Shown here: in pieces, positions 53,850 to 55,919 of the stretch
Numbering within the stretch: position 1 is the first letter of the stretch
Layout of the letters: each line of letters begins with the position of its first letter
From: Luteimonas endophytica
Lineage (GTDB): Bacteria; Pseudomonadota; Gammaproteobacteria; Xanthomonadales; Xanthomonadaceae
Direction: 5' to 3'
NCBI RefSeq assembly: GCF_029887875.1
Contig: NZ_JARXRM010000043.1
Span: 262,181 to 326,180 of the forward strand
Length of the DNA stretch: 64,000 nucleotides
The notes under the pieces: generated by a model
The model's database searches: none
What the model was told of the DNA's origin: nothing
What the model saw: only the letters and a program-made list of their open reading frames with translations
Made by a program: the position numbers and the translations under genes

Positions 53850-55919
53850 CTAGCCATCGGCACCGCGCCTCGCCTGGATCGCCAGCGCGATTCTGTTCAG
53901 GCGCTGGCGCTGTTCGCAAGCGGCCGCATGCGCCTGCGCAGGCGTGCAGGGCACGAAGCCGACTCCGTCCCCCGGGCGCAGCTGCGCCAGCCGCGGCCAG
54001 TCGGCGCGGATCGCATGGCCGATGCGCGGGTAGCCGCCGTGGGTCTGGGCGTCGGCCAACAGCACGATCGGGCGCCCGTCCGGCGGCAGCTGCACGGTCC
54101 CCGGGGCGACCGGTTCGGAGATGCGCTCGCGCGCCTCCGCCAGCGCGAGCGCATCGCCGTCGAGGCGCAAGCCCTGCCGATTGCTGGCCGCGGCCACCTT
54201 CCAGCGACCGCCGAACACCGCCTCGGCCGGCGCGGTCGCGTCGCGGCCCGGCAGCAGGCGGATCCGCGCCGGCAGGGCGCTGCCGACGTCCGGCGCGCCG
54301 TCGATCCACCAGGGGGCGATGCGCGGGCGCGGGACGTCCGCAACCGGGCCGCCGCCGATCTCCAGCACGTCGCCCCTGGCGAGCGCGCGGCCGCCGAACG
54401 GCCCGCCGAAGCCGCCGCGCAGGTCGGTGCTGGCGCTGCCGAGCACCGGCGCCACCGCCAGGCCGCCGCCGACCGCCAGCCATGCGCGCGCGCCGCCGCG
54501 GCATGGCCCCAGCGAGAGCATGCTGCCGGCCGGCAGCAGCACCGGCCGCCAGCCGGGGATGGCGTGGCCATCGGCCTCGGCGTCGATCGCCGCGCCGCAC
54601 AAGGCGATGCACACCGGGTGACTGAAGCGCAGCCGGGGCCCGGTCAGGGCGATTTCCAGCGCCGGGGCGCCGGGGGCGTTGCCGACCAGCAGGTTGGCGA
54701 CGGCGAGCGAGTAGGGATCGAGCGCGCCGGCGCCGCCCACGCCCAGGTGGCGCAGGCCGCTGCGGCCGGCGTCCTGCACCGTGGTGGCCAGGCCCGGTGC
54801 CAGCACTTCCACCGTCGCGTCCTCGGCGTGGGCACGGTCCGGGACGCTTGCAGCGCAGTGGGAACGCTGCGACCCGGCCGGTTGCCCTGCCCGGAGGGGC
54901 ACGGCCGATCGCTCGGGCGCAACGGAACGGCCGGGCGCGTTGGATCGGCCCGACGGGCCGCACGGGCCCGGCTTGGGGCCATCGCCGCCTGCGTTGGAGC
55001 CCGCCGGCGCGCCTGTCGATGCCGACGGGCGCGCGGGCCCGGCCGCTTCGGATGCGTTCGTTCCGCCGTCCGCGTCGGATGCCTGCGTCGGACTGGTCGA
55101 ACCGGCGCGTTCGGCGGGCACGAACCGCACCCGCTGCCCCGGCGCCAGCAGCGAGGGCGGCGAACGCGCCGGATCGAACAGCCGCAGCGGAGTGCTGCCG
55201 ACGATGCGCCAGCCGCCCGGGCTCTCGCGCGGGTAGATGCCGGTCTGGGCGCCGCCGATCGCCACGCTGCCGGCGGGGATGCGGGTCCGCGGCGTGTCCA
55301 TGCGCGGCATCGCCAGGCGCGGGTCGAGCCCGAGCAGGTAGGGGAAGCCGGGGGCGAAGCCGAGCATCGCCACGCGGTACTCGGCGGCGGCGTGGGTGGC
55401 GATGGCGTCCTCCGTCGACAGGCCGGCGTGCGCGGCGACGTCGGCCAGGTCGGGGCCGCAGGGGCCGCCGTAGTGGACCGGGATCTCGACGATCGGGGCC
55501 TCGGCGGCACCGGACCCGGCGGCATCGGATGCGGGCGGACGTTGCGGCTCGCGCCGCTCCCGCAGAGGGCGGTAGCCTTCGTCGCTGTCGCTGTCGCTGT
55601 CGCTGTCGCTGTCGCTGTCGTCGTCGTCGTCGTCGTCGTCGGGGGAGGAGTCGCCGGGGCGACCGGCGGCCGGCAGGCACGCGCGCAACCAGCGCTCCGC
55701 ATGCAGCAGCGGGTCGACCTCATCGCCGCCGGCGTCGGCGGCCACGAACAGCGCCAGCGCGGCGTAGCCCGGCACCACGTCCAGCAGCCACGGCGGCCGC
55801 TGCGCCTCGATCGCCGCCGCGAGCGCGTGCACGCGGCCGTTGAGTTCGCCGTCGATGCGCTCGCCGAGCCGCAGCAGCAGCGCTTCCCCGCCCAGGCGTT
55901 CGACCGCGAAACCGGTCAC
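53850..55919 (-). CDS. pxpBC: fused 5-oxoprolinase subunits B and C
   Basis: A 689-residue fusion. Residues 1-270 are PxpB (KipI/AHS1): FAVERLGGEALLLRLGERID, then YRVAMLGFAPGFPYLLGLDP and GSVAIGGAQTGIYPRESPGGWRIVG. Residues about 360-689 are PxpC (KipA/AHS2): VEVLAPGLATTVQDAGRSGLRHLGVGGAGALDPYS, GGAQ-like blocks and LADAQTHGGYPRIGHAIRADWPRLAQLRPGD. A roughly 90-residue Ser/Gly/Pro/Ala linker joins them. PxpB is interrupted at about 86-141 by eight Asp, six Ser-Asp repeats and LRERREPQRPP, which comes from DNA repeats. The GTG start overlaps the HIT gene stop (GTGA). Confidence 0.9.
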   Translation of the reverse strand: MTGFAVERLGGEALLLRLGERIDGELNGRVHALAAAIEAQRPPWLLDVVPGYAALALFVAADAGGDEVDPLLHAERWLRACLPAAGRPGDSSPDDDDDDDDSDSDSDSDSDSDEGYRPLRERREPQRPPASDAAGSGAAEAPIVEIPVHYGGPCGPDLADVAAHAGLSTEDAIATHAAAEYRVAMLGFAPGFPYLLGLDPRLAMPRMDTPRTRIPAGSVAIGGAQTGIYPRESPGGWRIVGSTPLRLFDPARSPPSLLAPGQRVRFVPAERAGSTSPTQASDADGGTNASEAAGPARPSASTGAPAGSNAGGDGPKPGPCGPSGRSNAPGRSVAPERSAVPLRAGQPAGSQRSHCAASVPDRAHAEDATVEVLAPGLATTVQDAGRSGLRHLGVGGAGALDPYSLAVANLLVGNAPGAPALEIALTGPRLRFSHPVCIALCGAAIDAEADGHAIPGWRPVLLPAGSMLSLGPCRGGARAWLAVGGGLAVAPVLGSASTDLRGGFGGPFGGRALARGDVLEIGGGPVADVPRPRIAPWWIDGAPDVGSALPARIRLLPGRDATAPAEAVFGGRWKVAAASNRQGLRLDGDALALAEARERISEPVAPGTVQLPPDGRPIVLLADAQTHGGYPRIGHAIRADWPRLAQLRPGDGVGFVPCTPAQAHAAACEQRQRLNRIALAIQARRGADG
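55541..55565. repeat. second-family palindromic repeat inside pxpBC
   Basis: On the minus strand, GCGGGAGCGGCGCGAGCCGC matches the second family: a GCGGC/GCCGC stem with a GCGA loop, compensating for GCGAC/GTCGC elsewhere. It is read in frame as LRERREPQRP within PxpB. Confidence 0.5.
55581..55640. repeat. microsatellite (GTCGCT)6(GTC)8 inside pxpBC
   Basis: Six GTCGCT hexamers are followed by eight GTC trinucleotides. On the coding strand they give eight Asp then six Ser-Asp pairs. Unit lengths of 3 and 6 keep the frame, so copy-number changes would lengthen or shorten the acidic run without breaking the gene. Confidence 0.95.

Follow-up and report, generated by a model that had tools for sequence, protein, structure and literature searches.

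Organization of the pxpB-pxpC locus

The window, i.e. the whole stretch of 64,000 nucleotides of Luteimonas endophytica DNA that was analysed, carries on its minus strand a fused pxpB-pxpC gene followed by pxpA. The features considered in this work are listed below from the start of the fused gene to the REP behind pxpA, together with their basis.

53850-55919, minus strand: pxpB-pxpC fusion gene of KipI-KipA type, encoding 689 aa, with its stop codon at 53850-53852; open frame, Pfam, NCBIfam
55665-55919, minus strand: PxpB N-terminal domain, residues 1-85; confident in AlphaFold, last helix 70-81, 2kwa match
55494-55664, minus strand: hinge between the domains, carrying the insertion, residues 86-142; low pLDDT, length against relatives
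55617-55641, no strand assigned: (GTC)8 plus one base, read as D8 on the minus strand
55581-55616, no strand assigned: (GTCGCT)6 microsatellite, read as (SD)6 on the minus strand
55542-55561, minus strand: palindrome resembling a REP, GGGA-GCGGC-GCGA-GCCGC-AA, and probably a decayed copy of one, with extended similarity over 55535-55575; weight matrix, stem
55113-55493, minus strand: PxpB C-terminal domain, residues 143-269; 2phc and 2zp2 matches, alignment
54828-55118, minus strand: second long linker, between PxpB and PxpC, residues 268-364, probably disordered; pLDDT about 30
53853-54815, minus strand: PxpC part (CT_A_B), residues 369-689; Pfam, NCBIfam
52998-53744, minus strand: pxpA (LamB/YcsF family), next gene; PF03746 8.2e-84, the start at 53744 being our ORF reading
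52952-52971, minus strand: intergenic REP directly 3' of pxpA; weight-matrix score 30.8

An earlier note on this DNA had treated the gene as that of PxpB, a small conserved subunit, and had mentioned neither the fusion nor the second long linker at 54828-55118; Pfam, NCBIfam and the open frame instead returned a single PxpB-PxpC chain of 689 residues. The GTG start at 55919 was our choice, and the open frame extends further upstream. Pfam searches on the fused chain recognized CT_C_D (PF02682; 1.8e-64, 217.5 bits, cut-off 22.1) and CT_A_B (PF02626; 2.5e-78, 263.8 bits, cut-off 25). Among the NCBIfam models, TIGR00370 (PxpB) scored 183.9 bits, above its cut-off of 145.55, and TIGR00724 also exceeded its own cut-off. 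The PxpC equivalog model NF045499 matched at 243.7 bits, below its cut-off of 500; the fusion to PxpB and the neighboring pxpA gene favour the assignment of the second half of the chain as PxpC.

The fusion was uncommon among the fetched loci, being recognized by script in L063 and L141 and by eye in L129, out of 42 rows including duplicates. The nearest relative, genome G025 (locus L063), also bears the fused gene; in G046, which ranks next, the two parts are separate frames. Nei-Gojobori calculations against G025, performed with our own script, returned dN/dS values of 0.35, 0.13 and 0.24 for the N-terminal domain, the C-terminal domain and the PxpC part respectively, and GC3 in the frame stays at 0.94-0.95 to either side of the palindrome and insert. 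The low dN/dS values and the maintenance of GC3 across the insert thus point to a working gene. As the genome is a draft in 46 contigs, an assembly error or a decaying pseudogene might be suspected; we give hardly any credence to this explanation, since the repeat spans merely 61 bp and the frame remains open across 689 codons, in addition to the GC3 around the insert and to dN/dS ratios well under 1.

The second linker is rich in Gly, Ser, Pro and Ala, occurs once in the genome and is much longer than its G025 counterpart. Its low confidence comes from an AlphaFold model of the whole fusion that is itself weak (pTM 0.38). On the plus strand, positions 54858-54874 of this linker read GTGGGAACGCTGCGACC, which by eye could be a badly decayed REP.

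Position of the insertion in the interdomain hinge of PxpB

Residues 1-275 were modelled by AlphaFold using 37 sequences, and the resulting model showed a mean pLDDT of 82.5 with both domains mostly confident. Mean values of 44-61 per ten-residue block were obtained for residues 81-140, and on this model the hinge is probably disordered. The best structural matches were PxpB/KipI proteins: 2kwa, a KipI half, aligned to residues 1-89 (Z 10.5), 2zp2, also a KipI half, aligned to residues 142-272 (Z 21.8; by sequence its match begins at query residue 143), and 2phc aligned to residues 140-273 (Z 24.0, rmsd 1.4, 133 aligned). Taken together, these matches assign the model to the two-domain KipI fold. 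Since the separately solved halves 2kwa and 2zp2 flank the insertion, the latter falls in the link between two self-folding domains. The earlier note had placed the insertion within an otherwise intact domain and had proposed structure modelling to see whether it fell in a loop. The rest of the protein is indeed well conserved, but the insertion is located between two domains rather than inside one, in an interdomain hinge that AlphaFold models with low confidence and that is probably disordered. The invariant columns of the alignment, in which the window sequence is included by construction, are all found at residues 1-50 and 147-266, outside the insertion, and the near-invariant position 242 is Ser in the window and in G025 and Arg in most other sequences.

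The hinge, taken as the stretch between W77 and I146, consists of 68 residues in the window, 32 in G025 and 18-32 (median 22) in 37 relatives. These counts cover the measured loci: 30 loci were fetched from 95 matching family genomes, L138 (truncated and misaligned) and the four duplicates L128, L130, L131 and L135 were left out, L127, which duplicates the G046 locus, was unused, and L047 had no usable frame. The hinges of several relatives contain short acidic runs such as DTDADSEDD, and a repeat of the D8(SD)6 type was absent from all 37 PxpB relatives measured. The insertion is real, in-frame and lineage-specific. An old conserved protein feature, which according to the earlier note would be implied by an insertion shared by all relatives, was rejected on the basis of these lengths and of the occurrence of the insert in 0/37 measured relatives.

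Sequence and rarity of the repeat tract

Positions 55581-55640 of the plus strand read exactly (GTCGCT)6 and then (GTC)8, as the earlier note had reported, with one extra matching base at 55641. The codon list of the minus strand gave D8 (residues 94-101), (SD)6 (residues 102-113) and then Glu114, in agreement with the poly-Asp/Ser-Asp stretch previously described. The window contains four overlapping matches of (GTC)5, which did not occur in any of 100 dinucleotide shuffles, and (GTCGCT)3 is present at a single place of the 4.19 Mb genome, the pxpB tract itself, in four overlapping registers. The tract is far beyond chance. Runs of at least four GTCGCT units were detected in 3/52 genomes of the genus and perfect runs of at least five units in 9/199 genomes searched, with the host counted and one place per genome in both cases.

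A few candidate origins of the tract were tried and rejected. Hairpin-driven expansion found no support, as the 111-base stretch, whose DNA fold contains the 5-bp palindrome stem, folds as single strand no better than shuffles (z 2.32 and 0.72 on the two strands). A dispersed insert in multiple copies was rejected since the whole hinge DNA and the whole second linker are each single copy in the genome, and a plasmid origin since a plasmid collection gave no match. Elsewhere in the genome the hinge DNA matched two simple acidic tracts, which lie in what are presumably RpoD and an OmpA-like protein.

Of the 8 other genomes with runs of five or more GTCGCT units, 4 (loci L098, L099, L100 and L102 of genomes G053, G085, G009 and G013) carry the repeat behind dispersed intergenic elements that by eye resemble one another, TTTTCCGACTCGGCATCC...CGGCGCCCT.CGGGTCTG. 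Thirty loci of this element were taken from 46 matches in 12 genomes, and in 3 of them the element was followed, at a distance of up to 330 bases, by an (RRC)n run, against 1/501 control pieces; two of these three loci lie 330 bases apart and have identical letters. The element was rejected as an explanation of the pxpB tract, its 18-base core being absent from the host genome. Elsewhere in the window, an imperfect tandem array with a 22-base unit and 3.4 copies was observed at 60215-60286.

A second acidic microsatellite was observed in the host genome, a (GTC)8 tract inside the poly-Asp/Ser region of the protein at L079 (around 1505-1528), which we take to be RpoD. The similar poly-Asp tract in this RpoD-like protein is a hint that GAC runs can expand where this genome encodes acidic regions. 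GACGAC pairs are already present in the G025 hinge and represent a plausible seed for such an expansion.

Both repeat units preserve the reading frame, being 6 and 3 bases long, as the earlier note had pointed out; slippage would then not switch the frame in the manner of phase-variable microsatellites. The earlier note had also suggested that slippage could tune an acidic loop. In a reading of this kind the repeat number would vary in the population, and the length and charge of the hinge would adjust the contacts of the PxpB domains with each other or with PxpC/PxpA, resulting in a graded 5-oxoprolinase activity. The in-frame units, the perfection of the repeat, which is hence probably young, and its low-confidence position between domains agree with this proposal, as does the description of staphylococcal SD repeats as unstable, with a proposed role as length-tuned linkers, in passages of PMC3324548. 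However, the 37 measured relatives do with hinges of 18-32 residues without the repeat and so give no indication that a contingency locus is maintained; we regard tuning as improbable. Very improbable, too, is the most far-reaching reading, that of a cytosolic enzyme of metabolism with an acidic linker adjustable by slippage, whose repeat number would set the spacing and charge of the PxpB domains and provide a heritable and reversible grading of 5-oxoproline use with the frame kept. Length tolerance is the simpler reading, since hinge length varies and the hinge is acidic in several relatives.

A REP-like palindrome beside the repeat

The peptide LRERREPQRPP, which the earlier note had ascribed to a palindrome remnant, is encoded by positions 55533-55565, and this stretch contains GGGAGCGGCGCGAGCCGCAA at 55542-55561. 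The palindrome was therefore confirmed, and its membership of a REP family is probable. Its parts are a GCGG head, GA and a palindrome of 5 bp. A GTGG head is found in several of the genome's other copies; the GCGG head is also present in one of the 8 copies used for the weight matrix described below, and the pxpB loop departs from the consensus.

The motif GGGAGCGRCNNNAGYCGCNA was written from the pxpB copy and the copy at 52952, both of which match it by construction, and matched the genome exactly at 10 places, of which 8 are independent, as expected for a dispersed repeat. In the window it showed 3 exact matches against 0 in 100 shuffles, a comparison that is partly circular since the motif covers these two copies. 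Of the 10 exact matches, the one in pxpB alone is crossed by a frame whose GC3 exceeds 0.9 to its left and right. An unbiased weight matrix was then built from the 8 independent copies. The three clear REPs of the window scored 30.4-31.8 bits, and the pxpB site scored 17.7 bits, the fifth best value in the window, below the 19.5 bits of a site at 4938. REP-like sites were noticed in the window at 49315-49406, 29269-29291 and 4938-4960, the last being the site of 19.5 bits; the site at 49315 (plus strand) is accompanied by a weaker inverted site at 49384 (minus strand), perhaps a decayed REP pair.

The pxpB copy was compared with the REP on the pxpA side (52945-52985), and 31/41 positions were identical, the next-best copies giving 29 and 28. 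Their flanks agree at 15/21 positions (shuffle P 0.0009, uncorrected for 24 comparisons), and the stems are set apart by a compensated substitution, GAC/GTC to GGC/GCC, which is present also in L016. A stricter motif with the GTGG head was found in 15/52 genomes of the genus, host counted, with zero matches for the reversed control, and its sites often form inverted pairs among the matches listed. The pxpB copy does not match this stricter motif, and no inverted partner was noted beside its palindrome.

The palindrome might not derive from a REP at all; the whole insertion would then have been built within a GC-rich hinge by local duplication and slippage, and its likeness to REPs would be due to chance. 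This would account for the imperfect head and loop and for the lack of a second genome copy of the hinge DNA as a whole, and it agrees with the motif at up to one mismatch being little above its reversed control (25 matches against 17) and with a score of 17.7 bits being reached in 6/60 shuffles of the whole window. The same score was reached in just 1/2000 hinge shuffles and 2/500 gene shuffles, and the compensated stem and the extended similarity to the REP located 2.6 kb away also argue against a chance resemblance, which we consider unlikely. A REP origin of the pxpB palindrome is likely on these sequence comparisons.

REP-associated transposases belong to the PF01797 family, and the host genome contains two Y1-transposase (PF01797) genes. 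The full REP motif was not found in the fetched 1.5 kb flanks of either locus, each of which gave a 9-base partial match.

In G025 a REP is located behind pxpA (L063, 826-848, 29.3 bits; the pxpA frame ends at 886), and its fused gene showed no REP by the weight matrix and its hinge no simple sequence repeat. As G025 shares the pxpA-side REP without the hinge copy, the former would be older than the split between the two lineages. Being positionally conserved with G025, the pxpA-side REP could have been the donor of the hinge copy, which so far appears confined to the host species.

Proposed origin of the insertion

Our preferred explanation, to which we assign a probability of roughly three in four, is that a tolerant hinge has grown in frame by REP insertion and slippage with little or no effect on the enzyme. 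A REP palindrome, plausibly from the older copy behind pxpA, would have been inserted or copied into the hinge in this species, and the GAC/AGC codons beside it would have expanded by replication slippage to give D8(SD)6, this growth following the split from G025. The frame would have been kept because both repeat units are multiples of three, and the enzyme would tolerate 36 to 50 extra residues because a disordered hinge joins two self-folding domains. The sequence itself, the fusion, the place of the insertion in the hinge, its absence from the measured relatives, the low dN/dS of the domains and the low model confidence of the hinge are direct results, whereas we infer the REP origin and its donor, the slippage mechanism, the order of events and the near-neutrality of the insert.

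The locus thus offers a natural example of repeat DNA becoming protein, in which a palindrome and a microsatellite occupy a length-tolerant place of a conserved enzyme, and the fused gene of G025, with neither palindrome nor microsatellite in its hinge, provides the before-picture. If the repeat number were variable and consequential, the hinge would represent a tunable linker of a sort that is unusual in metabolism; on present evidence the insertion mainly documents tolerance.

Comparison with known systems

A fused PxpB and PxpC (KipI-KipA) on one chain is also found in TTHA0988 from Thermus thermophilus (494 residues; 3oep, 3opf, 3ore). Judged from total length and match coordinates, the linkers of TTHA0988 are short, whereas both linkers are long in the present protein. 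A literature search returned no paper naming TTHA0988, and nothing on this pxpB insertion was present among the matches listed.

The REPs of Pseudomonas and Xanthomonas associated with RAYT are described in passages of PMC2817692 as a GT(A/G)G head, GA and a palindrome, e.g. TGTGGGAGCGGGC.TGCCCGCGAA, and the same layout is given in PMC3686654. The host-genome REP copies, which read GTGGGAGCGACGGAAGTCGCGA, have this same arrangement of head, GA and palindrome. REPs with RAYT are described as extragenic and as usually exceeding 100 copies per genome; in contrast, 10 exact motif matches occur in this genome, and the pxpB copy is part of a coding frame and has an altered head.

A parallel for a dispersed palindromic repeat lying in frame in a metabolic gene, with a fold that apparently bears the insertion, is provided by the Rickettsia palindromic elements (RPEs; PMC10969869). 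Passages of the same paper describe RPEs as elements of about 150 bp in ten families, with 44 in one genome and nearly half of them in ORFs, whereas the pxpB hinge contains a single probable decayed REP of about 20-40 bp with an adjoining microsatellite. As for the latter, passages of PMC3324548 on the staphylococcal Sdr/Clf proteins describe an SD-coding tandem repeat proposed as a flexible linker that varies in length without frameshift. The pxpB tract resembles it as an SD-coding tandem repeat in linker position, but long repeats in surface adhesins are found there and 6 SD pairs plus D8 in a presumably cytosolic enzyme here. RPEs in proteins and staphylococcal SD linkers are thus cases comparable to the pxpB insertion.
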